A stretch of DNA of 23,271 nt from a virus. Positions 4,711-22,706 of the stretch are shown here, piece by piece. Position numbers and translations under genes: made by a program. The number at the start of each line of letters is the position of its first letter. Position 1 is the stretch's first letter. The notes beneath the pieces were generated by a model. That model ran no database searches. It saw only the letters and a list, made by a program, of their open reading frames with translations, and was not told the DNA's origin. The DNA lies in IMG/VR virus record IMGVR_UViG_3300012936_000179, positions 1 through 23,271 of that record; one strand, given 5' to 3'.

Positions 4711-5883
4711 ATGGAAAAAAAAGAAGAAGTAAAACAAGAAGGTGAATTTAAAATTAAGAAAAAAAGAGGTAGACCTAAAAAACTATCTAACAATAATTCT
4801 GAAACACCTAAAATAGAAATAAAAACAAAAGACGATGCCGTTCAAGAGCCAAAAGCAGAGGAAACTGTGTTACAGTCTGAAAAGAAGGAAGAAAAACAAG
4901 AATTGGGACTGCAAGAAGTGGGATCAACACACGAAGAAAAAGCTTCCAAAGAAACTGTAGAAAATACAAAAAACACTATAGTAGAAATAACTGAAGAAGA
5001 AATTAAAGAAGAAGTTAAAGAAACTAAAAAAGATTTAGAGGAAGCTGTAAGAGATGAGAAAGTTCTTGGCAAAGCTTTACCAGAAAATATTGAAAAGCTT
5101 GTTTCGTTTATGGAAGAAACAGGTGGAGACATAAATGATTACGTCAGATTAAATGCTGATTATTCTAATGTTAATGATGACGTATTATTAAAAGAATATT
5201 ACAAAAAAACTAAACCACATTTAGAAAGCGATGAAATAGATTTTATTATGGAAGAGCAATTTAAAGTGGATGAAGATTACGACGAAGAGCGAGATCAACG
5301 TCGAAAAAAACTCGCTAAAAAAGAAGAAGTTGCAAAAGCTAAAAACTTTCTTGAAGATTTAAAAACGAAGTATTACGAAGAAATCAAGTCGAGGCCTACC
5401 GTAAACAATGAAATGTCTAAAGCGAGTGAGTTTTTCAACAGATATAACAAAGAACAAGAGATAGCTAAGAAACGTCATGAAGTGTTTAAACGAGATACTA
5501 ATAAACTTTTTTCTGAAGAATTCAAAGGTTTTGACTTCGCTTTAGGAGAAAAGAAGTTTAGATATTCCGTTAATAATCCAAGTGATGTTGCTGAAGCCCA
5601 GTCTGATATTTCTAATGTGCTTAAGAAGTTCTTAAACGAAAACGGAGAAGTTGTAGATTATAAAGGTTATCATAAAGCTATTTACGCTGCTAGAAATGCA
5701 GATACTATTGCACAACACTTTTATGAGCAAGGTAAAGCCGATGCTGTTAAAGATGTAGTTGCTAAGTCTAAAAATATAAGTAAGGATGCTAGAAAGTCTA
5801 ATCCTGAAAACGTGTATTTAAAAGGTCTTAAAGTAAAAGCGGTCAGCGGTGTTAGTAGTTCTAAATTAAAAATTAAAAGATAA
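4711..5883 (+). CDS. Probable capsid scaffolding protein with an AT-hook-like motif
   Basis: This is a 390-residue, very charged, mostly helical protein placed between portal and major capsid, the usual place for the scaffold that guides capsid assembly and is then lost. The N-terminal 120 residues are Glu/Lys-rich and probably disordered. They contain KKKRGRPKK at residues 16-24, a good match to the AT-hook core RGRP. A more ordered region begins around residue 123 (LPENIEKLVSFMEETGGDIN), with a coiled-coil-like stretch at about 190-270. The C-terminus is strongly basic (KLKIKR), as in scaffolds whose C-terminal tail binds capsid subunits. A head protease or protease-scaffold fusion is unlikely because no catalytic motif is visible. 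A minor capsid or DNA-binding role is the alternative. The 17-base gap to the portal suggests shared transcription. Confidence 0.7.
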   Translation: MEKKEEVKQEGEFKIKKKRGRPKKLSNNNSETPKIEIKTKDDAVQEPKAEETVLQSEKKEEKQELGLQEVGSTHEEKASKETVENTKNTIVEITEEEIKEEVKETKKDLEEAVRDEKVLGKALPENIEKLVSFMEETGGDINDYVRLNADYSNVNDDVLLKEYYKKTKPHLESDEIDFIMEEQFKVDEDYDEERDQRRKKLAKKEEVAKAKNFLEDLKTKYYEEIKSRPTVNNEMSKASEFFNRYNKEQEIAKKRHEVFKRDTNKLFSEEFKGFDFALGEKKFRYSVNNPSDVAEAQSDISNVLKKFLNENGEVVDYKGYHKAIYAARNADTIAQHFYEQGKADAVKDVVAKSKNISKDARKSNPENVYLKGLKVKAVSGVSSSKLKIKR

Positions 5884-5894
5884 AAAAATAAAAA

Positions 5895-7337
5895 ATGGGA
5901 CAATTTGAAAAATTTGGGCCTGGATTATTGCCTACTCAAGATCAGTCAGTCTTGTCAACAAACTACTTACAGTGGAATGACAGAAATGGTGAAAACTTTG
6001 CAGATTTTGCACAGCAATATCTACCTGAACTTTATGAACAAGAAGTAGAAAGATTTGGTAACAGAACGTTATCAGGTTTCCTAAGAATGGTAGGCGCTGA
6101 AATGCCTATGACATCTGACCAAGTAATTTGGTCTGAACAAAATAGATTACATATTGGTTACAATGATGTAAGTAAAAGTGGTAATGTATTTACAGTTGAT
6201 ATGGCAACTCCGCCAAACGAAGTTGTTATAAGACAAAACCAAACGTTTGTAGTTTACGATCCCGTAAATGAAGTTACGTTAAGAGGTCTTGTTACATCAG
6301 CTCCAAATCCTGGAACTCCTGGACAAATTACTTTTGAGGCTTTGCCATACACAGAAGCTGACTGGAATTCTTTACAGGATACAGGTTTAAAGATGTTTGT
6401 ATATGGTTCTGACTTTGCAAAAGGAACTGAAGGAATGGAAGGATCTGTAACTCCTACTTTTACTCAGTTTAGCAACAGACCAATAATCATAAAAGATAAG
6501 TATTTAGTTAACGGTTCTGACACTGCTCAAATTGGTTGGGTTGAAGTTGCAACTGAAGATGGAACATCTGGATTTTTATGGTATATGAAAGCTGAATCAG
6601 AAACTAGATTAAGATATGAAGATTATCTTGAAATGGCTATGGTTGAAAGCGTTAAAGCTGATCCAAACGGTGCTTTAGCACAAGCTAACTTTCCAAATGG
6701 ATCTGGAGCAGGAACACAAGGTATGTTTGCTGCGATTAGAGAAAGAGGTAATGTATATTCTCAATTTTCTGGTGCTGCTAACCCTGGATCTGGTGCGTTA
6801 GGTGATTTTGATGCTATATTACAAGAGTTAGATTTACAAGGTGCTATTGAGGAAAACATGTTATTTTTAGACAGAGCTACAGCTTTAGACTTTGATGATA
6901 TGATTGCTGCTCAAGCTGGTGGTGGATACAATGCTACAAGCGCTGCTTCTTATGGTCTTTTTGACAATGAAGCTGAAATGGCACTTAACTTTGGTTTTTC
7001 TGGTTTTAGAAGAGGTTCTTATGACTTCTATAAAACAGATTGGAAATATCTAAATGATGCTTCTACAAGAGGTATGGTTAATGATATTAAAGGTGTAATG
7101 ATTCCTGCTGGAACATCTACAGTATATGACCAAATGTTAGGATCTAACATTAGAAGACCTTTCTTACATGTAAGATATAGAGCTTCTGAAACGGATGACA
7201 GAAGAATGAAATCTTGGATAACAGGATCTGTTGGTGGTGCTTACACATCGTCTTTAGATGCTATGGAGGTTCATTATCTTTCCGAAAGATGTCTATGTGT
7301 ACAGGCTGCTAATAATTTTGTATTGTTCGTAGACTAA
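5895..7337 (+). CDS. Major capsid protein
   Basis: This is the main shell subunit, predicted to have an HK97-type fold. At 480 residues it has the size of capsid proteins in crAss-like and related podoviruses. It follows the scaffold gene. Its motifs match marine Bacteroidota phage capsids as I remember them: residues 57-86 begin RTLSGFLRMVGAEMP and continue with SDQVIWSEQNRLH, and the C-terminus has YLSERCLCVQAANNFVLF. The middle is Gly/Ala-rich, with few charges and a composition quite unlike the Lys/Glu-rich scaffold, as expected for an abundant shell protein. The ATG follows an A-rich leader (aaaaaataaaaa) with no Shine-Dalgarno site. An A/T inverted repeat lies right at its stop codon. 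Confidence 0.9.
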   Translation: MGQFEKFGPGLLPTQDQSVLSTNYLQWNDRNGENFADFAQQYLPELYEQEVERFGNRTLSGFLRMVGAEMPMTSDQVIWSEQNRLHIGYNDVSKSGNVFTVDMATPPNEVVIRQNQTFVVYDPVNEVTLRGLVTSAPNPGTPGQITFEALPYTEADWNSLQDTGLKMFVYGSDFAKGTEGMEGSVTPTFTQFSNRPIIIKDKYLVNGSDTAQIGWVEVATEDGTSGFLWYMKAESETRLRYEDYLEMAMVESVKADPNGALAQANFPNGSGAGTQGMFAAIRERGNVYSQFSGAANPGSGALGDFDAILQELDLQGAIEENMLFLDRATALDFDDMIAAQAGGGYNATSAASYGLFDNEAEMALNFGFSGFRRGSYDFYKTDWKYLNDASTRGMVNDIKGVMIPAGTSTVYDQMLGSNIRRPFLHVRYRASETDDRRMKSWITGSVGGAYTSSLDAMEVHYLSERCLCVQAANNFVLFVD

Positions 7338-12336: not shown

Positions 12337-15300
12337 ATGGCAGAGGCTAAAAATACTTTTATACAGTCTAAGATGAATAAAGACTTAGACGGTAGAATAA
12401 TACCTAATGGTCAATATAGAGATGGAGAGAATGTACAAATAAGTAGATCAGAAGGCGACGACGTTGGTGCTTTAGAAAATGTATTAGGTAATTCCTTGTT
12501 AACTGACTTAGGTTTCAACGATCCAACTTTAACTTCCATTGGTGTTAATTTTGACACAACTAGCAATTGTATATATTTATTTTTAACAAATTACAGTGAT
12601 TCTTCCAACAATCAATTAAACAACAATTGTTCTGGTATAGCTGGTGCTAATTGTTATATTGTAAAATATGATTTAACAAGTGGTCAATCAAAAATATTAG
12701 TAGAAGGTTCTTTTTTAAACTTTTCTAAAACACATTTAATTACGGGTATTAATTTATTAGAAGATCTTCTTTTCTGGACAGACAATAGAAATCAACCAAG
12801 AAAAATAAATATTAATCAAGATACTGGTTATTATTATAATGAAGATCAAATATCTGTAGCAAAGTATTATCCCTTTGAAGCTCCAATATTATTAAATAAT
12901 AATCTAGACGATGATACGTCTTCAGTTATGTATTCTTCATCTATGAAGGACACAACTTCTAAGTATTTGCCTATACATGCTGCTGCTAAAGTAAAAGAGG
13001 TTAACGAAGGATCTGGTCAAGTTACTTTGTATGGTTGTTATAGAAACATAAAAGCAAATACATCTGCAACTAGTTTTGATGGAAATTTAGTAACTGGAGG
13101 TAATATAAGCATTAATGGCTTGTTATTAGATTCAGTTACCTTAAATTGTGCTTTATCACAAACCATTATAACAACTTCAGGTGGTGAGCTCGATGTTGAT
13201 CAAGGAGATATATTATATTTTCAATATTTAAACCCAGATTTTATTCAAGGTTGGTCTGGTGATCCCGATTATTTAAAAGACAAGTTTGGTAGATTTAGCT
13301 ATAGATTTAGATTTGAAGACAGAGAATATTCATTAAGCGCTCCTTTCACTCAAATAGCTTTTGTTCCTAAACAAGACGGTTATTTTATAGGTAATAAAGC
13401 CACTGATATTACATTTAGCACTGATCCCGCGGATGATACAAAAAATGCTAATCAAACTTTAGTTGGCCAAGAAAGCGAAGCTTTTGATACCACTATAGTT
13501 AGTTTTATGGAAAATAAAGTTTGTGATATCAATATTGGATTATTAGCACCTCCCTCTGGCTCTATTGGTAAAAGATTAACTTGGGATAAAGTAGCAACAG
13601 AATTAAAAGTTTCTGAAATAGACATATTATTTAAGATGTCTGATACTAACAATGTTTTTATTATTGACACTTTAGAACTCTCTGAATTTGCTAATTTAAA
13701 CTCAGAATATATATACTATAATTATCAAAGTAAAAAACCTTGGAAAGTTTTACCTACTAACCAAATAACTCGAGTTACTGATGTTGTTCCAATAAAAGCG
13801 CAAGCGCAAGAAGTGTCAGGTAATAGAGTTATATATGGTAATTTTGTAGATAAACATGGTTCTCCAGCTAGGATGGATTATGTTTTAACAATTGGTGACA
13901 AACCTCCAATACCAGATAGCGATGCTGATCCTGAGTGGAAAAACCATAATTTTTATGTGAGAAAAGAATATCAAAATCACACGCTAAAACAAAACAGAAC
14001 TTATCAAGTAGGTATAATTCTAACCGATAGATATGGTAGAAACTCAAACATAATATTATCAGATTTTTTACCTGGAAACGAAAATCAAGGCACTGCAAAA
14101 AACTCAACTATATTCCATGACTATAGAAGTACTCAAGATAGGATAATAAAAAATTCTGATGGATTTGGTTTAGCGGACACTTGGCCTGGTGATCAACTTT
14201 CTGTTATATTTAAAAACATTATAGATGAAGATAAAAACCCAGAGATAGGTTATCCAGGACTTTATTCAGAAGCAGACGGATCTGTTAGCTCTGTAGTATT
14301 TAATACACCATCCTTAGGTACAGCACTCTCAGCCAACACTCAGCTACCATCTTTTAATCCACCTTGTGAAACACAACTTAGAATTAAATCTACCACTGGT
14401 TACGAAACTGCTGTTATAAATGTTGTTATAGGTATCGGCGGCGTGGTTGAAACAGTTGTAGTTGTTGAGTCCAGCAACGGGTGGAAAGACGGTCAACCTT
14501 TTGTTGTAGATTGGCAAGGTTTAATAATTGAAGATGATTGTTCTGCTCAGTTATTTGGTAACAACTATGGTGGAAATGTAGTTACTTCAAAATCTAATCC
14601 TCTAGGCTATTATAGTTATAAGATAGTTGTTAAACAAACAGAGCAAGACTATTACAATGTTTATATGCCAACTTCTTTAGCTGGATACCCTTGTAATCAA
14701 AATGTAGATGGTAAACTTAATGAACAAGACGGTAATGTAAAGCAGTTTGTTTATCCTGTAAATCAAGAAAATTCAACTTCTCACATAGTTTTATTTAGTG
14801 ATAACATAAATAAAGTACCTAGAGACCTTCAAGAAGTTGGTCCTACTCAAGAACTTTATAGAAGTAATGCTGATTTGTTTTTTAGAGTTGAAAGTTTTTT
14901 ACTTGATGCTACCACTAAAGAGTTTTCAAGTAGACAATATCAACCGAATACATCAGGCAATAAAGTTGTTTCTATAGCTAATATGTCTAAACTTGATTTA
15001 GGGGAGTTAATATTAAGTCCCTCTGTACCTATAATACCCAACATTTTTTACAAAGGAGATACGGATCCTTTAATAGGTAGAGTAGCTACAGATGAAAAAT
15101 TTGGTATTTCTATAGGTGAAAACGATGGTATTACAAATACTTGTTTAAACACTGGTCAACCAGAGTTTCAGCAAGCTACAAATCCAGACACTGACCTTCC
15201 ATGTCAACTTGGAGATACCTGTTATATAGAGCCAAATGTTACAGTTTGGAATAGTAAGTATGGCTATGGACCAACGTTATGCATAGCAGAAACAAAACCT

Positions 15301-18021
15301 GTAGAATCTACTATAGATATTTTTTACGAAACAAGCACTAGTGGTTTAATATCAGAGCTAAATAACAATATAAGATTTCAAGATAACACAGCTCCAGCTG
15401 GTATGAGTGATCCAGGTATTTCATGGGAAGAAGGTCAAGATTATAATACTCCTATATCTTCAGTTTTTCAAGCAATAAGTGGTAATGGTTTACCTTTAGG
15501 TTCAAGCGCTGCTATAGAGCTTGTTAAAGTAGTTAAAGCCGGGAGCACTGTATGTACATCTCAATTTGAATTAGTTGACTTAGGTAATGGTGAATATCAA
15601 GTTTATATAGCACCATATAATCCTAATAGTAATAACAACTTTATATACAGCGCTATTAATGGACAAAATTACTTTAACTTTACTTTTGATATTATAAATT
15701 TAAGTACACAATCAAGAAGAACTGTTGTTAAAAATGGTGAAATTAGCAATACTAAACCTAATGATAGAACTAATCCACCTTGGACAGCTATAAAATCAGC
15801 TTTAGGTGTTGCTTCACAACCTGTTACTACATGGAATACCGCTGAAAGCTTACAAACAATGTCTTTAAAAGCTGAGAAAGGTTATCAAAAATATGGATTA
15901 ACATCTTATGACAGTTTTTCTGGAGCATTTTTCCCCACTGAAAGAGCATTTTATCAGTACATAGCTCCTGAAGCTTCTTTTCCAAATGAAGAAATAAATT
16001 TTGGACAAATAAGACCTACAACTCAAAAATATATAAACGCAAACCCATGGTACATGAGTGATTCAACAAGAACAAGTTCATCTTGGGCTTATTCTCAAGT
16101 GCAAGTCATGGATAGTTTCTTTGCTAATTTTGAAAGATCTGATAGAGAGAGAACCGGCGGTTGCAAAGGAACAAACGCTTATCTTTTTTGGAGCACGTAT
16201 GCGGACAACTTACAAAACCCTGGCTTGTATAGTGGTCAGTTAGATTACGGCTGGTTTGGTGGTCCAACCGGGCCAGGTATTAGTAAAGCTCCTGGCAATG
16301 GAATAGTTACCGACCCAAATCAGTACAATGATTTTGCTAAAGGAACTAACGATTATAAAGGATCTTTAAATACTACTACTAATAACAGTGTTAGTAATAA
16401 AAAAGGAACAGTGCAATTTGCACCTATATTAAGAGAGTTATATCGCTATAATTCAGCGCGAAGATCTCAGAAAATATATGCTTTAAGACCTGATAGACAA
16501 GGTTATTCAAATAGATATCCATACCCTGGAAATACAAGTGGTAAAAAAGGAAGAAAACCAGTGTATATTCCATGTGTTCAAAATCAATCCGATGGAGAAG
16601 GGATAATGCCTGGCTGGGGAGAACAACTAACTTGGTCAATATCAGCAGGTCCTTATGGTAATTATGGAGGTACTAGTAATGTTGTGTTTCCAGCAGAAAC
16701 AGCATTTACCGATACTGTTTTGTATAATGGAGAAACTTTAACTTGGAATGGAGAATTTTCAGCAGCTAATGGTACTTGGGGTAGTGTACAACCAGATCAA
16801 ACTTCACCTTATGGACCTGGAACTGGTATTGAAATGGAGTGGAGTATACCAAGAATGTATCAAGTAAGTATGATGGTACCACACGGTGAAACGTTTTCTG
16901 TTTGTAGTAGTTATCCTAAAAAATATGGAGATGTTGATCAGCTATATAATCTTGCTGCTGGAGGTGGTATAGCTGTAGCTTTTGGAGTTACTTTAGGAGC
17001 AGCGGTATTTGCGGTTTATGTAAATGATATTGATATTTGCTGGGGAATAACAAACGCTTCAGATACTAAAACCGTTCAATCCCAGTTGATGCCTGGGCAA
17101 AGAGCTGCTGCAAGTACTAGAGGCGCGGACGCAAAGTCTTTTGATATGCAACCAGCTGGCGAAGTTATATTTGGCTTATACCCTAAAGAATGGTTAGATG
17201 GTAACACTGATCCTAGAAATAGAGATTATATATTAAAGAAAATGCCATCAGGTCCTATATATTGGGATCATGAAAGTGGCACTAGACCAGGTTCTCAAGG
17301 AAGTGATCAAATGAGTGCTGATTTTGGTGAAGCATACGTTGGTCAAGCGCAGAATAATGGTAGACATTATTGGCCAGACATTCAACATTTAATAGACACA
17401 GAAAGTGAGTTTGCAGAATATTCAGAAAAAGTAGACGATGGAGTTCCTGATTATTCTTTAGCACCTAACTTTATGAAGCTACAGCACGGTAGTAATACTT
17501 TTTACCAGTGGCAAAGACAATATGCAAGTTGGTTTGCATTTTGTGGTATTTCACAAAGTTATGTATATCCTAGAGGTAGAGGAACAGGTGCTTGTGGTGG
17601 TAGAGATGCGGATATTATTAGGCAGGTTGGTCAATGGATTTTAAACAGCGGTGTTACTACTGCTCACGAAACAGATAAAGGTTATTTATTTCATTTAGGA
17701 GGATTGTCTAATAAAATAGGTAATCCAAATAGCAATATAAGATTTTTTGCAGAACAAACACACTCTGGAAGTCCTAACCAGGACGATCCTTCAAGAGCGG
17801 TTGTTTATGCTGGAAACCCAAGTCTTCCTTCTCAATCTTGGAACCCAGAGTCTTTATCAAATACTTTAACATCCGTTATGACAGGTAATGGAATGCCAGG
17901 TGGTAGATACGTAGTAACATTAAGAGCTACCGATGTAAACGGCAGTGGACTTTACGTTGAGTTTGACGTTCCTATTCAACTTCCATTTTGGGCAAGTAGA
18001 ACTAATTCACCTTTAAGGTAA
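12337..18021 (+). CDS. Giant tail nozzle-like protein
   Basis: This is a 1894-residue structural protein, the largest here. Residues 13-52 carry the pattern MNKDLDGRIIPNGQYRDGEN followed by SEGDDVGALENVLGN. Residues 143-158 read DLLFWTDNRNQPRKIN, like a blade of a beta-propeller. Both are typical, from memory, of nozzle-type tail proteins in marine and crAss-like podoviruses. Further conserved blocks are at 754-779 (NPLGYYSYKIVVKQTEQDYY) and 985-1009 (ETKPVESTIDIFYETSTSGL). The end at 1858-1878 (YVVTLRATDVNGSGLYVEFD) resembles a cadherin- or Ig-like strand pair. The stretch from about 1150 to 1850 is unfamiliar: rich in Gly, Tyr, Trp and Asn, with a hydrophobic run at 1539-1562. It probably forms the tail tip that contacts the host surface. 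The start is 3 bases after the previous stop. Confidence 0.78.
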   Translation: MAEAKNTFIQSKMNKDLDGRIIPNGQYRDGENVQISRSEGDDVGALENVLGNSLLTDLGFNDPTLTSIGVNFDTTSNCIYLFLTNYSDSSNNQLNNNCSGIAGANCYIVKYDLTSGQSKILVEGSFLNFSKTHLITGINLLEDLLFWTDNRNQPRKININQDTGYYYNEDQISVAKYYPFEAPILLNNNLDDDTSSVMYSSSMKDTTSKYLPIHAAAKVKEVNEGSGQVTLYGCYRNIKANTSATSFDGNLVTGGNISINGLLLDSVTLNCALSQTIITTSGGELDVDQGDILYFQYLNPDFIQGWSGDPDYLKDKFGRFSYRFRFEDREYSLSAPFTQIAFVPKQDGYFIGNKATDITFSTDPADDTKNANQTLVGQESEAFDTTIVSFMENKVCDINIGLLAPPSGSIGKRLTWDKVATELKVSEIDILFKMSDTNNVFIIDTLELSEFANLNSEYIYYNYQSKKPWKVLPTNQITRVTDVVPIKAQAQEVSGNRVIYGNFVDKHGSPARMDYVLTIGDKPPIPDSDADPEWKNHNFYVRKEYQNHTLKQNRTYQVGIILTDRYGRNSNIILSDFLPGNENQGTAKNSTIFHDYRSTQDRIIKNSDGFGLADTWPGDQLSVIFKNIIDEDKNPEIGYPGLYSEADGSVSSVVFNTPSLGTALSANTQLPSFNPPCETQLRIKSTTGYETAVINVVIGIGGVVETVVVVESSNGWKDGQPFVVDWQGLIIEDDCSAQLFGNNYGGNVVTSKSNPLGYYSYKIVVKQTEQDYYNVYMPTSLAGYPCNQNVDGKLNEQDGNVKQFVYPVNQENSTSHIVLFSDNINKVPRDLQEVGPTQELYRSNADLFFRVESFLLDATTKEFSSRQYQPNTSGNKVVSIANMSKLDLGELILSPSVPIIPNIFYKGDTDPLIGRVATDEKFGISIGENDGITNTCLNTGQPEFQQATNPDTDLPCQLGDTCYIEPNVTVWNSKYGYGPTLCIAETKPVESTIDIFYETSTSGLISELNNNIRFQDNTAPAGMSDPGISWEEGQDYNTPISSVFQAISGNGLPLGSSAAIELVKVVKAGSTVCTSQFELVDLGNGEYQVYIAPYNPNSNNNFIYSAINGQNYFNFTFDIINLSTQSRRTVVKNGEISNTKPNDRTNPPWTAIKSALGVASQPVTTWNTAESLQTMSLKAEKGYQKYGLTSYDSFSGAFFPTERAFYQYIAPEASFPNEEINFGQIRPTTQKYINANPWYMSDSTRTSSSWAYSQVQVMDSFFANFERSDRERTGGCKGTNAYLFWSTYADNLQNPGLYSGQLDYGWFGGPTGPGISKAPGNGIVTDPNQYNDFAKGTNDYKGSLNTTTNNSVSNKKGTVQFAPILRELYRYNSARRSQKIYALRPDRQGYSNRYPYPGNTSGKKGRKPVYIPCVQNQSDGEGIMPGWGEQLTWSISAGPYGNYGGTSNVVFPAETAFTDTVLYNGETLTWNGEFSAANGTWGSVQPDQTSPYGPGTGIEMEWSIPRMYQVSMMVPHGETFSVCSSYPKKYGDVDQLYNLAAGGGIAVAFGVTLGAAVFAVYVNDIDICWGITNASDTKTVQSQLMPGQRAAASTRGADAKSFDMQPAGEVIFGLYPKEWLDGNTDPRNRDYILKKMPSGPIYWDHESGTRPGSQGSDQMSADFGEAYVGQAQNNGRHYWPDIQHLIDTESEFAEYSEKVDDGVPDYSLAPNFMKLQHGSNTFYQWQRQYASWFAFCGISQSYVYPRGRGTGACGGRDADIIRQVGQWILNSGVTTAHETDKGYLFHLGGLSNKIGNPNSNIRFFAEQTHSGSPNQDDPSRAVVYAGNPSLPSQSWNPESLSNTLTSVMTGNGMPGGRYVVTLRATDVNGSGLYVEFDVPIQLPFWASRTNSPLR

Positions 18022-18050: not shown

Positions 18051-19958
18051 ATGGCTTATCAAATTCCCGTTAAATATTTTAACTCGTTTTGGCTTAAAAA
18101 AGTTGTAGGCGAAGACTTTACAGACGACATAGAAAATGATAACTCTACTGTAACAACAGATGTTAAAGGTGGTAATAGTGCTAACGTGGCAGATACTTTA
18201 GACTATATATTACCAACTTGGCCAGGTTTACCTTGGGGTAGTGAAATTTCAAGTCCACTACCGCAAGACCCAACTATTACAATAGGTTATCCAGAATTTC
18301 CATGGGGTGGTGCTTTAGTAAATCACAATACTGGCACTGAAATGGGTGAGAAAAGACAATGGTTTGTTGAAGAAGCTAGAATAAGAGGTGGCTATAATAA
18401 TACAACTGTTGATTTTGGCGTTAAGGCTTATGCTGTGGAAGAAAGCAATAAACAATTACATCGTTTTAACGCTTTAATATATTCAGGTATTTTTAATTCT
18501 AGAACAGGTGTTAACAACACAAATGTTTTTTCTACTGCAGAGCCTATTACCAAAGCATTAGACCCGGAAAATGGTAGTATTCAAAAGCTTTACGCTTATG
18601 ACACTAATCTTACAGTTTTTCAAGAAAACAAAATAAGCAAAGCTTTAATTGACAAAGATGCTATATATTCAGCAGAAGGAGTAGGTACACCAGTAACTTC
18701 TACTAAGCTTGTAATAGGTCAAATAGTACCTTATAAAGGTGAGTATGGTATTAGCAAAAATCCTGAATCTTGGGCTCAATATGGTTTTAGACAATATTTT
18801 TCTGATAAATATAGAAACTGCGTATTAAGATTATCTAACGATGGTTTGACAGAGATATCAAGTTATGGTATGACAGATTACTTTAGAGATGAATTAAATA
18901 TAACTAAAGATTATAATGTCCGTAGCACTTTAAGTTTTAATTTAGAGTCACCATTAACTGGTGTTGATAGTAAAATAATTACTTTTTCTGTAAATTCTAC
19001 AGAAAGCTGTGACTGTAATAATATTGAAATTGGATCTTTATTAAATGTTGGAGGTAATACTTTAGATAATACATTTGTGGTAGATTATTCTTATGATCAA
19101 TCTAGCGGTGAATATGGATCGTGTGAAGTAACTGTTTCTTCTAGTTGGAAACCGGCTACATATGGAGAAACTGCATGGCCTAGTATTGTTGGATTTACAA
19201 CTTACAAAAGTGACAAGATTATTGGTGGATTTGATAATTATAATAAAAACTATGTAGTTTCTATACAGCAAGAGACTACGTACAACGCTTGTACGGGAGT
19301 TCCATTTAGACAAAATAATGGAGTAGATACTATAACTTATAAAACAGTTAACTTTGATGAATCTATAAATGGTTGGGTAAGTTTTTACAGTTATAATCCA
19401 ACCTTGATTGGCAGCTTAAAAAACAATTTTTACAGTATTAATAATTACAACATATATAAACACTATAGTAATACGCAGCCTAATAACTACGGTAAATTTT
19501 ACGGTGATAGATATTCTTCTTCTATAGAGTTTATATTTAATCCTAAACCGTCAATTGTAAAAAACTTTCAAACAGTTAGTTACGAAGGTAGTAATGGCTG
19601 GGAAGTTTCTCATTTTGTTTCAGATTTTTCTGAAAAATTTTATGATGTTTTTTCTGGCACTTGGTATCCTTCACAAGATTTAACTAATCCTGTTTTAAGC
19701 TTATCTGATGGCGAATATCAAGATCCTGTAACTGGATATAAAAACTATGCAGGATTTTTCTTAAAAGAAAATAAATATGTTGCTAATTTAATAAACACTT
19801 CACCACCTATGGAAGGTGAGATTGTATTTGGACAGGCAATGAGTGGTATAAAAGGTTATTACTCAACTGTAAGATTAACAACAGATAATACTACGGATGT
19901 TGGAGGCATGAAAGAATTATACTGCGTTGGTTCTAAATGGGTTGTATCATCACAATAA
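18051..19958 (+). CDS. Muzzle/nozzle-like tail protein
   Basis: This is a 635-residue tail protein. Residues 107-127 (EEARIRGGYNNTTVDFGVKA), 190-210 (FQENKISKALIDKDAIYSAE), 230-250 (GEYGISKNPESWAQYGFRQY) and 390-406 (IIGGFDNYNKNYVVSIQ) are the blocks I remember from the conserved tail tip (muzzle) protein of crAss-like phages and related marine podoviruses. Strand-rich repeats throughout fit a beta-propeller. There is no signal peptide. It follows the giant tail protein by 29 A-rich bases and is in a different frame. The two may together do what one longer nozzle protein does in relatives. The C-terminal 200 residues are Tyr/Ser/Asn-rich and could touch the receptor. Confidence 0.77.
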   Translation: MAYQIPVKYFNSFWLKKVVGEDFTDDIENDNSTVTTDVKGGNSANVADTLDYILPTWPGLPWGSEISSPLPQDPTITIGYPEFPWGGALVNHNTGTEMGEKRQWFVEEARIRGGYNNTTVDFGVKAYAVEESNKQLHRFNALIYSGIFNSRTGVNNTNVFSTAEPITKALDPENGSIQKLYAYDTNLTVFQENKISKALIDKDAIYSAEGVGTPVTSTKLVIGQIVPYKGEYGISKNPESWAQYGFRQYFSDKYRNCVLRLSNDGLTEISSYGMTDYFRDELNITKDYNVRSTLSFNLESPLTGVDSKIITFSVNSTESCDCNNIEIGSLLNVGGNTLDNTFVVDYSYDQSSGEYGSCEVTVSSSWKPATYGETAWPSIVGFTTYKSDKIIGGFDNYNKNYVVSIQQETTYNACTGVPFRQNNGVDTITYKTVNFDESINGWVSFYSYNPTLIGSLKNNFYSINNYNIYKHYSNTQPNNYGKFYGDRYSSSIEFIFNPKPSIVKNFQTVSYEGSNGWEVSHFVSDFSEKFYDVFSGTWYPSQDLTNPVLSLSDGEYQDPVTGYKNYAGFFLKENKYVANLINTSPPMEGEIVFGQAMSGIKGYYSTVRLTTDNTTDVGGMKELYCVGSKWVVSSQ

Positions 19959-19964
19959 AATTAA

Positions 19965-20369
19965 ATGAAATTAAATATAAGAAAATTAACTAAAGGAGAT
20001 TTACAAATAGCTAAAAATTGGTGGGAAAAATGGCCAGATTGGGTTGCTCCAGCCGATGATTTTTTACCTGAAACAGGTGTTGTTGTAGAGTCTAACAATA
20101 AACCTGTAGCTATAGGTTTTATATATTTAACTAATGCTAAAGTGTGTTTGTTAGAGTGGGTAATATCTGATCCTGAGTATAGAGAAAATGACAGGCAGGT
20201 TTTAATAGAGCTGTTAATAACTGGAGCTGAAAACATGGTTAAAGAATTAGGGTATAAATATATGTTTAGCGTTTGTAAACATAAAAAGCTAATAGCAACA
20301 CATAAAAAATTAAAATGGCACGTAGATAAAAAGCCATCGTACGAATTAACGAAAATTTTAAATAAATAA
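19965..20369 (+). CDS. GNAT-like N-acetyltransferase
   Basis: This 134-residue protein has the layout of a small GNAT acyl-CoA transferase: strand 1 and helix (LNIRKLTKGDLQIAKNWWEK), a central strand pair (KPVAIGFIYL, VCLLEWVISD), a helix starting at about residue 73, and C-terminal strand-helix segments (YKYMFSVCKHKKLIATHKKL). The acetyl-CoA loop, normally Q/RxxGxG/A, appears as RENDRQ at 73-78 with no glycine, so activity is uncertain. I recall closely similar small GNATs within the structural cluster of marine podoviruses. The substrate is unknown: it could be a virion protein, a host protein or a small molecule. The gap to the tail gene is 6 bases and to the next gene 2 bases, so it is in the late operon. 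Confidence 0.8.
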   Translation: MKLNIRKLTKGDLQIAKNWWEKWPDWVAPADDFLPETGVVVESNNKPVAIGFIYLTNAKVCLLEWVISDPEYRENDRQVLIELLITGAENMVKELGYKYMFSVCKHKKLIATHKKLKWHVDKKPSYELTKILNK

Positions 20370-20371
20370 TT

Positions 20372-21076
20372 ATGGGACTAGTAACAGCAGCTGTAGTATC
20401 TACCGCGATAAGCGCAGGCATGGGCATAGCATCAGCAGTGAAGGCAAATAAAGATCAAAGAAAGTTTGAAGCTGAAATGAAAAAGCAAGAGGCTATATTG
20501 AAAGATTTAGAAGCATCGAGACAAGATGTAATAAATCCCATGGCTGGTCTAACTAATGAAGCTGAAAAAATAGGTGTTGCTACTCAAGCTGCTAGATTTC
20601 AAGCTGAAGAAGCTGATCAAGCTTTAGCTAATACTTTAGATACTTTAATGGCAACTGGAAGTGGTTCTGCTGGAGCCACTGCTTTAGCTCAAATGGCTTT
20701 AAAATCTAAACAAGGTATATCTGCTGATATACAAAAACAAGAACTTGCAAATGCAGTTAATATCGCTAATTCACAACAAGTGATTAACCAACAGAAAGCT
20801 GAGGGGGAAAGGTTTAAATGGCAAAACCAAGAGTTTAGAGAAATGGATAAGCTTAATAGAACTGCTAATCTTATGGATAAAGCTGAAGCTCAAATGTATA
20901 ATGCGGAAGCACAGAAATGGGCTGCATATGGAAATATAGCGGGTAGCATTACAGATGGTATAGGAATGGCTGCGGGTGGTATTAATACTAATAACATGGC
21001 TGGTCAATTAAATAATGCAGCTGCTGGTATGGGTAATACTGGAAGCGATGCTACTGTAGGTTTAGGTTCAATTTGA
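20372..21076 (+). CDS. Internal virion protein (ejected, T7 gp14-like by position)
   Basis: This is a 234-residue, Ala/Gln-rich, mostly helical protein. The first 24 residues (MGLVTAAVVSTAISAGMGIA and on) are hydrophobic and small-residue-rich, like the membrane-inserting start of podovirus ejection proteins. Residues about 45-110 carry a pattern I know from marine phage internal proteins: SRQDVINPMAG, a helix, then ALANTLDTLMATGSGSAGA and TALAQMALKSKQG. A second Gly/Ala-rich weakly hydrophobic stretch lies near 183-202. It is unlikely to be a secreted protein, since it sits in the virion block followed by another internal protein candidate. By analogy with T7 gp14 it may form a pore in the cell envelope during DNA entry. 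That role is inferred. Confidence 0.75.
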   Translation: MGLVTAAVVSTAISAGMGIASAVKANKDQRKFEAEMKKQEAILKDLEASRQDVINPMAGLTNEAEKIGVATQAARFQAEEADQALANTLDTLMATGSGSAGATALAQMALKSKQGISADIQKQELANAVNIANSQQVINQQKAEGERFKWQNQEFREMDKLNRTANLMDKAEAQMYNAEAQKWAAYGNIAGSITDGIGMAAGGINTNNMAGQLNNAAAGMGNTGSDATVGLGSI

Positions 21077-21092
21077 AAATAAAATATAAGAT

Positions 21093-22706
21093 ATGGGGTA
21101 TACTGATCCAAAAATAATTCTTAATAGAAGCGGTGATGTTATTAATAAAGAAATATCAAACTTTAGAAAAAATATGCGTTTTGAGTTTGATACTATTAAT
21201 GCTAGACAACAGCAGAATATTAAAGAAAACATGCGAATACTTGAACAGCAAAAACAAAAAAGAGATTTAGGCGATCAAGTTTGGTATCAAAACATAGAAC
21301 AATATAGACCTGAAGGAGGTTATGCAGAAGACACAAAAGCTTTTTTACACAACATGCATAACAAATATTGGGATCTTATGAATTGTGACACTCCTGATTG
21401 TCAAGCTGAGCTTAGAAGAATAAGAGAAGTGCCAAGGCAACTAGCAGAACAAAGAGGAGCTTATGACGCTTTAATAGAAGATTGGGAGGCTGGCGCAAAA
21501 ATAGATGGTGTTAATCCAGGAGCTATTGACGCAGCTAACAATAATAGTTTAGCAAACTTGCTTCAATATGGTAAAAATGTAAAAAAACAATATAATTTCG
21601 AAACAGGAGACGTTGAATACTTGTTATTTGATGAAGAAAACAAACCAGTTTTAGATGCGGATGGTAATCAAAAAATAATTAGTGGAAGCAGTTTAGTTAA
21701 AGGAGCTTTAGATGGTAGCATGGCTGTTCAAACTTATGGAGATCCCGGAAAGCTAAGACAAGAGTGGCAAGCTGGACTAGCTGAAAAAGCAGATTACAAA
21801 GCAATGGTTCAAACCATAGATGACCAATCTGATAGATATAATCAACAAAAAAGCAAAAACTACAAGGTAGCTAATGATCACTTAAGGTCTTTTGTTGAAG
21901 GTGGTAAGCTAGATAAAATAATGTCAGACAGTAATGAAATGCGTAGAAGTTATCCTGTTGTTCTTAAAGGATTAATGAGTCAAGCAACTGGAGAAAACCC
22001 TGATCAAAGGTCTATAGACGCATTAAATGGTTTAGGTTTACTAGGAGAAGATAAGATAGCAGGAACAGCAGATGATGTTGATATAGATCAAATGTACGCT
22101 ACACAAGCTCAAGCAGGTACTTGGCAAGGCAGTGCAGAACAGCAAGCAGCTGTCGAAGCTTATTTTAAATATCTAGACCCTCAAGATGGTTTGATAAAAC
22201 CAGATGAAATAGTTACATCTAGAAAGCTAACTGACGATAGCTATACCACTGCTCAAAGAGCGTCGATAGAAAAAGCAGCGTTAAAAAACCAAGGCGGATC
22301 TAGCTCAAAAGGTAAAATGACAGAAAACCAGAGAGTAGATGCAATATTAAAAATAGAAAAGAAAGTAGAAGAAGGAACAGCGACTCCAGAGGATAAAAAA
22401 ATTCTTAAAGAATTAACTAAAGGATATGGGTCTACAAATCAATCTAGCAGTAGTAATATACCTAAAAGTGGCAAAGTAGGTAAATTAACAAGCACTACCC
22501 AAGAAGGACTCAAAAAAGAGTTAGCTGCAATAGATGCAAAAAAAGAAAATGAAATAGGTGACATTTTAGAATTTGAATTAAATGGTAAAACTGGGTCAGT
22601 AATCTGGAATGGTGAAAGATGGGAGAAAATGGGCCCAAAACCAGCTAGCCCTATGAGAGGTTCAGGTCCAGCTGTTACAGACCAGACATTACAACCTAAT
22701 AAATAA
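21093..22706 (+). CDS. Probable internal virion/cargo protein
   Basis: This is a 537-residue, hydrophilic, largely helical protein. The N-terminal 80 residues are a charged Gln/Lys/Arg-rich helix (RQQQNIKENMRILEQQKQKR), followed by a mixed domain with Cys residues near 97-103 and acidic loops. Residues about 395-470 are Lys/Glu/Ser-rich and probably flexible (GGSSSKGKMTENQRV). The end is Pro/Gly-rich. There is no signal peptide, membrane segment or enzymatic motif visible. It lies between the short hydrophobic internal protein and a large acidic gene, the place of the second ejected protein in podoviruses and of cargo proteins in crAss-like phages. The function is inferred from position. The gap before it (16 bases) has no Shine-Dalgarno site. 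Confidence 0.68.
   Translation: MGYTDPKIILNRSGDVINKEISNFRKNMRFEFDTINARQQQNIKENMRILEQQKQKRDLGDQVWYQNIEQYRPEGGYAEDTKAFLHNMHNKYWDLMNCDTPDCQAELRRIREVPRQLAEQRGAYDALIEDWEAGAKIDGVNPGAIDAANNNSLANLLQYGKNVKKQYNFETGDVEYLLFDEENKPVLDADGNQKIISGSSLVKGALDGSMAVQTYGDPGKLRQEWQAGLAEKADYKAMVQTIDDQSDRYNQQKSKNYKVANDHLRSFVEGGKLDKIMSDSNEMRRSYPVVLKGLMSQATGENPDQRSIDALNGLGLLGEDKIAGTADDVDIDQMYATQAQAGTWQGSAEQQAAVEAYFKYLDPQDGLIKPDEIVTSRKLTDDSYTTAQRASIEKAALKNQGGSSSKGKMTENQRVDAILKIEKKVEEGTATPEDKKILKELTKGYGSTNQSSSSNIPKSGKVGKLTSTTQEGLKKELAAIDAKKENEIGDILEFELNGKTGSVIWNGERWEKMGPKPASPMRGSGPAVTDQTLQPNK

Follow-up and report, generated by a model that had tools for sequence, protein, structure and literature searches.

The gene at positions 19965..20369 (+ strand; ATG start, TAA stop) of the stretch of DNA analysed here, a 23,271-base IMG/VR virus record (hereafter the window) which is a fragment of a marine crAss-like phage, encodes a 134 aa protein of the phrog_17252 family with a predicted GNAT fold and a variant pyrophosphate loop. 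The account that we favour, with some caution, is that this protein is an accessory of the ejection apparatus, packaged in the particle and probably not using acetyl-CoA. A GNAT-fold protein without the canonical pyrophosphate loop would, on this account, serve the DNA/protein ejection apparatus; it would be produced together with the first ejection-type proteins, would most likely bind one of these, or else the muzzle, while the particle is being put together, and would then be carried in the virion. The fold, loop, gene order and family membership described below were computed here.

Open reading frames of the window have matches among families of terminase, portal and virion structural proteins and, judged by its crAss_MUZ_C domain and by a gene order common to the elemo phages and phi38:1, the phage is crAss-like; in the taxonomy given by the records phi38:1 belongs to Pervagoviridae and elemo to Elemovirus, neither of them in Crassvirales. 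Cultured relatives have Flavobacterium, Cellulophaga and Maribacter as hosts. Immediately 5' of the GNAT gene lies the gene for a C-terminal muzzle (tail tip) protein (18051..19958, + strand, 635 aa), which matches Pfam crAss_MUZ_C at E 7e-9 and has its best stretch at positions 921-1098 of phrog_14478. The ORF before it (12337..18021, + strand, 1894 aa) has its best stretch at positions 2-196 of the same family and is probably the N-terminal part; the two stretches are the start and a later part of the 1474 positions of phrog_14478, and the muzzle/tail protein appears to be split in the window, its counterpart in elemo and phi40:1 being a single ORF. Immediately 3' lies the gene for E1 (20372..21076, + strand), a 234 aa protein with a hydrophobic N-terminus for which we infer, from gene position, the role of a first ejection/cargo-type protein. 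A Pfam search with E1 gave nothing above cut-off; its family profile matches phi40:1 gp099, a recorded MS/MS virion protein, at E 2.1e-5. The gene that follows (21093..22706, + strand, 537 aa) is placed second in the presumed ejection cassette by position alone, in synteny with phi40:1 gp100 and elemo gp19, and its product had no sequence match in Pfam, phrog and profile comparisons.

Residues 4-132 of the 134 in the window protein align with positions 2-134 of 134 in phrog_17252 (E 4.4e-20), a family with no named function, and an NCBIfam search of the family found nothing near cut-off. When the named phages were searched by tblastn (E≤10), 78 records were returned, 68 of them from Flavobacterium and seven, at E ~4 and thus weak, from Cellulophaga, the remainder being Panino, ctfjg026 and a weakly matching gut contig. 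One weakly matching gut contig, MT835638, was set aside, its score against the family profile being just E 0.047. An IMG/VR scan with the window protein confirmed 25 loci and one with a 16-row alignment confirmed 526 relatives, the best 80 of which form the near set; two further scans from distant seeds confirmed at least 571 and at least 558, and the best 80 of each make up the 160 wider loci. The wide set, drawn from all three of these larger scans by keeping from each the top 80 out of several hundred, is biased to its seeds and holds some contigs twice. Values of dN/dS ran from 0.02 to 0.25 in the 13 pairs that could be measured (15 were submitted and 14 reported, one of these being identical); by this measure the gene is under strong purifying selection and the ORF is not a chance one.

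The members of phrog_17252 (those of the elemo phages, Panino and ctfjg026, and gp098 of phi38:1/phi40:1) share one slot, in which a tail or muzzle gene is followed by the GNAT gene and then by the gene for a small virion protein; this order is found in elemo, Panino, ctfjg026 and phi38:1 as in the window. They are labelled 'unknown function', 'hypothetical' or 'structural protein', and their GNAT nature is hinted at in ctfjg026 only ('N-terminal acetyltransferase complex subunit'). In ctfjg026 (L030, 6624-7980) and Panino (L029, 6974-7936) extra genes separate the large tail gene from the GNAT gene, one of them annotated as a putative glycosidase.

In the window the gene is separated from its neighbours by 6 nt on the 5' side, where the upstream ORF ends at 19958, and by 2 nt on the 3' side, where the next begins at 20372; the initial annotation had described this tight packing, and the near loci are tightly packed as well. 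Of the 80 near loci, 78 have ≤15 nt between the gene and the closest ORF of at least 100 codons on its upstream side, and the remaining two have 39 and 42 nt; the gap to the downstream ORF was ≤6 nt in all 78 loci with a readable one, two others reaching the contig end. That downstream ORF has about 180-310 codons across the 80 near loci, the neighbours being counted there simply as ORFs. In the wider set of 160 loci, 52 matches start ≤20 nt past the upstream ORF, 106 start 21-100 nt past it and two start farther away; of the 240 loci in all, 233 have a downstream ORF, and in 223 of these it lies ≤20 nt away.

The wider loci also carry a TAnnTTTG box, the -7 element of Bacteroidota promoters according to a passage of PMC6847099, within 60 nt 5' of the GNAT match start in 149 of 160 cases, against an expectation of 0.05 per 60 nt and against 3 of 158 for the gene that follows. 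The GNAT gene may therefore stand, in the wider loci examined, at the head of a unit of its own that also includes the ejection genes. The box was found in seven of the 80 near relatives and is absent in the window. In 76 of the 160 wider loci (L163-L322) it lies 13-15 nt from the match start, a spacing at which the transcript would be nearly leaderless.

The GNAT nature of the protein is not obvious from its sequence, which had zero Pfam matches at E≤1. A profile of 16 relatives reached the GNAT structure YqjY of B. subtilis at E 0.03, and of eight wide-family members scanned against Pfam, two hit Acetyltransf_1, L167 with 19.8 bits where the cut-off is 20.7 (E 0.00097) and L170 at E 0.013, the remaining six giving no GNAT match. 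An AlphaFold2 model built from 58 sequences (pLDDT 93.6, pTM 0.87) showed GNAT topology; its elements (E3-7, H11-22, E38-43, E46-55, E60-68, H77-94, E99-103, H107-115, E119-121, E127-131) follow the GNAT order of strands and helices, with splayed beta4/beta5 and a second helix shrunk to about three residues. Foldseek returned 484 PDB matches at E≤0.001, headed by RimI (5isv, E 4.3e-7), and VIA-align superposed model and RimI with Z 15.7 and rmsd 2.2 over 129 residues. Among the closest solved folds by VIA Z were RimI (15.7), an archaeal N-terminal acetyltransferase (NAT, 15.4) and Ard1 (15.2); aminoglycoside acetyltransferase, tied with RimI, and others also fell within one Z unit, and no subfamily stands out. 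As modelled, then, the window protein clearly has a GNAT fold, and the GNAT-like call of the initial annotation is borne out; the fold by itself does not demonstrate activity.

Evidence for presence in the virion comes from Cellulophaga phage phi40:1, where gp098 occupies the corresponding place in the gene order. A profile built without gp098 recovered it from among 1549 ORFs at E 5.7e-11; the phi38:1 counterpart, 100% identical, matches phrog_17252 at 3.5e-10. Modelled from six sequences (pLDDT 77.9), the phi38:1/phi40:1 protein resembled GNATs at Foldseek E 1.9e-5, with VIA Z 10.5 and rmsd 3.2 over 119 residues. The GenBank note on gp098, a distant relative of the window protein, records a structural protein by 'experimental MS/MS proteomics'; such notes stand on at least 13 of the 101 phi40:1 CDS, including gp098 and the E1 relative gp099, and on none among gp001-gp068. 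In RefSeq, the notes on the phi38:1 structural genes (L028) refer to genes of 'phi18:1' with numbers as high as gp101; a passage of PMC13288928 gives phi18:1 65 predicted proteins. The cited numbers agree with phi40:1, which looks like a labelling slip.

The slot recurs in other short-tailed phages. T7 gene 13 (138 aa) follows gene 12 and precedes ejection gene 14, just as the window's gene follows the nozzle gene and precedes the first ejection gene, and the promoter phi13 lies before gene 13 as the TAnnTTTG box lies before the GNAT gene in the wider loci. In P22, gene 14 comes after gene 26, for the tail needle, and ends 2 nt before ejection gene 7. T7 gp13 belongs to PF11090 (Phage_T7_Gp13, 'probable scaffold protein') and the 151 aa P22 gp14 to PF11039 (DUF2824, E 6e-53, 'head morphogenesis'); the window protein matched neither in Pfam at E≤1. 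Profile comparison by hhalign of the window family with T7 gp13 was not significant (probabilities of 1.8 and 4.5%, P 0.027 and 0.009; on repetition 2.9 and 0.7%, reversed control P 0.47), and common ancestry by profile was dropped. PDB profile searches found nothing with the T7 gp13 relatives and just one weak glyoxalase match with P22 gp14. A structural search of viral models (BFVD) with the window model had no row named for T7 gp13 among the 50 matches listed of 112 (E≤0.001), which does not speak for its absence; a DUF2824 protein stood at rank 29 (E 3.4e-5, TM 0.61/0.57). By gene order the window protein shares its slot with T7 gp13 and P22 gp14, and membership in either family is not established. 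Passages in the literature on P22 gp14 gave no mechanism.

In the cobaviruses SIO1 (pc40) and ICBM2 and in roseophage CRP-810, a GNAT likewise lies between a tail protein and presumed internal virion proteins; these three match Pfam Acetyltransf_1 above cut-off, whereas the window protein does not. The SIO1 GNAT has been proposed, in a passage of PMC6775973, as a possible counterpart of T7 gp13, a suggested role in virion morphogenesis being noted there, and the GNAT-likeness of T7 gp13 comes from the same source. Against a target of five proteins that included two T7-gp13-like cyanophage proteins, T7 gp13 scored 96.5%, and 1.5% without those two; the window family scored 32.9% (P 4.6e-4) against the same five, the two cyanophage proteins included, and 4.3% (P 0.0095; reversed control P 0.38) against the three GNATs of SIO1, ICBM2 and CRP-810 alone. 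For the window family these profile similarities are suggestive at most, and against the three GNATs not significant. The text available for the crAss001 structure paper (PMC10172136) contains neither 'acetyl' nor 'GNAT', nor does the text of PMC10386132, and among the titles and openings of abstracts listed for crAss-like phages with a GNAT we found no description of this gene.

The slot in common with a 'probable scaffold protein' and a 'head morphogenesis' protein speaks for a morphogenesis factor, active while the particle is built and left out of it once finished. The proteome of phiPsa17 virions, as excerpted from PMC4517105, suggests as much for the T7 gp13 homologue of that phage; gp14-16 and others are named, with gp9 the sole other protein detected, so that gp13 is not among them. 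Against such a role stands the MS/MS note on phi40:1 gp098 as a virion protein, and homology to T7 gp13 was not established by the profile comparisons. We consider a factor left out of the particle unlikely, and prefer a packaged accessory, which the slot shared with T7 gene 13 and P22 gene 14 and the TAnnTTTG box of the wider loci also favour; that the window and most near relatives are without the box counts against it.

In GNATs of the usual kind, the pyrophosphate of CoA is held by a backbone clamp of the loop. The window protein has RENDRQ at residues 73-78 (20181-20198, + strand), where RimI, an enzyme like the archaeal NAT and Ard1, retains the CoA loop QRQGLG. Across 74 near sequences (the near set, an elemo protein and the window protein) the prevailing form of the loop is P-x-Y-[RK]-[ED]-x-[DN]-R-[KQ]-x-A; position 76 holds D, N or E, and Gly does not occur there. 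The wide alignment comprised 247 proteins in 220 distinct rows, 219 of them informative, the row of L258 consisting of two residues. When the motif [QR]xxGx[GA] was sought between residues 66 and 87, it was found in 0 of the 219 informative members; the full translation of L258 is likewise without it, and E. coli RimI, as positive control, has it. Across the wide set the length of the loop varies and its mean entropy is 1.94, against 1.68 on average. A loop without glycine or fixed length is hard to square with the usual backbone clamp, and the protein is probably non-catalytic. At the family level, to judge from these alignments, the initial annotation was correct in calling the loop degenerate and non-canonical; the near clade has fixed its own conserved version.

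Other positions are far less variable. Residue 77 is R in 217 and K in two members of the wide set, and the most conserved positions include D12, W19, W20, W23, W26, P35, G38, Y54, T56, N57, S68, R77, L109, E127 and K130, which suggests a candidate binding surface. As to the packaged accessory, we infer a binding partner and a role in assembly or ejection; contact would be made through the Trp-rich first helix and the loop that follows (W19/W20/W23/W26), the Y54-T56-N57 turn and R77, which would lie at the start of alpha3, the site where the CoA pyrophosphate would sit.

Two further positions count against this reading, as apparent catalytic remnants, and in favour of an active acetyltransferase with an unusual donor loop that modifies virion or host proteins: position 64 is E or D in 212 of the 220 rows, and position 113, aligned to what we take to be the Tyr general acid of GNAT alpha4 (a placement by alignment and by analogy with other GNATs), is Tyr in 125, His in 65 and Phe in 24. 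An enzyme would also fit the intact fold, with RimI as best solved match (tied with aminoglycoside enzymes), and the strong purifying selection. The window itself has His, not Tyr, at 113, however, and the CoA motif is in none of the informative rows, with the loop variable in length. Nor was there a substrate signal; N-terminal acetylation of the next protein, E1, was considered from its second residue, which is A, G or S in 78 of 78 cases, but the same was seen in 98 of the 111 further tightly packed genes compared, and the idea was dropped. We regard an active enzyme as improbable. The initial annotation had offered acetylation of virion proteins, packaging, or a non-catalytic, structural use of the adapted fold; the first finds no backing in the loop or in the second residue of E1, which is not distinctive, packaging is supported by the MS/MS record of a distant relative, and the last is the best supported of the three.

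The gene is not universal in its slot. A search with the window muzzle protein gave 61 loci, 51 of them with at least 700 nt past the muzzle ORF, and the GNAT gene was present in 15 of the 51. Many of the 36 loci without it match the tail protein only in part and have no ejection gene; 23 of them also lack an E1 match and carry little information. Among the 22 muzzle loci with a confident E1 relative, the GNAT gene was present in nine and absent in 13, several of the 13 being near-identical contigs; in GNAT-less examples the ejection gene comes directly after the muzzle. The family profile found no copy over seven whole GNAT-less contigs of unstated completeness (two of ~66 kb) and detected the control contig; a search of eight contigs with Acetyltransf_1 gave no match even on the GNAT-carrying control and so carries no weight, and the regions examined of crAss001 and phi14:2 held no family member. 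Because 13 of 22 E1-bearing muzzle loci are without it, this type of cassette does not require the gene, which, on the loci sampled, is dispensable across the lineage. The earlier statement that the gene is kept within the virion operon is thus in need of qualification. In one GNAT-less locus (L331), an unrelated ORF of 165 aa (5554-6048), with no Pfam match above cut-off, lies between muzzle and ejection gene; in six further muzzle loci (L362, L363, L365-L368) a GNAT match lies ~760 nt past the end of the matched tail ORF, with no E1 match.

Patchy distribution among muzzle loci, the record of gp098 in phi40:1 virions and the adjoining presumed cargo genes would all suit an injected effector, packaged with the ejection proteins and active in the host after infection, but Pfam, phrog and NCBIfam searches of the family found no host-target signature and the gene is tightly coupled to E1, and we think this the least probable of the alternatives.

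A broader and quite speculative extension of the packaged-accessory reading, one we would put on the unlikely side, is that crAss-like, T7-like and P22-like phages and cobaviruses, podoviral lineages otherwise unlike one another, have in common a position flanked by the last tail gene and the first ejection gene and taken by a GNAT-fold protein that lacks a conserved CoA loop. This protein would be a pseudoenzyme whose former substrate cleft holds an ejection protein, for example by the hydrophobic N-terminus of the latter, until loading of the particle is complete, an Arg standing in for the bound pyrophosphate. The CoA pattern is absent in the GNATs of SIO1, ICBM2 and CRP-810, as in the window family, and also in P22 gp14, in 11 of 12 T7 gp13 relatives and in four more T7-like proteins. 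The twelfth, T7 gp13 itself, matches the pattern once, which makes a common mechanism slightly less likely. A GNAT encoded elsewhere in the genome in Molineuxvirinae is likewise without the motif, and absence of the motif is therefore not peculiar to this slot.

Were the common mechanism true, T7 gp13 and P22 gp14, both vaguely understood, would be explained together. The analysis gives a fold, a position and evidence from virions to a family with more than 500 IMG/VR relatives in a single scan and no named function. It also ties crAss-like phages to a pattern that recurs, so far without explanation, among short-tailed phages (T7 gp13, P22 gp14, the cobavirus GNAT), in which the ejection genes are headed by a small gene that is GNAT-like or suspected to be so. 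As isolates with laboratory hosts exist (phi38:1/phi40:1 and the elemo phages), the choice between enzyme and structural part is directly testable; meanwhile, the fold alone is insufficient for labelling such genes 'acetyltransferase' or auxiliary metabolic genes.

The start codon of the gene (window 19965-19973) varies among the near relatives (L010, L032-L110). Of these, 61 of 80 have ATG, none of them with TTG at codon 3, and two begin with TTG; in the other 17, ATT or ATA replaces the ATG and codon 3 is TTG (16) or ATG (1), so that the start appears to have shifted two codons downstream.
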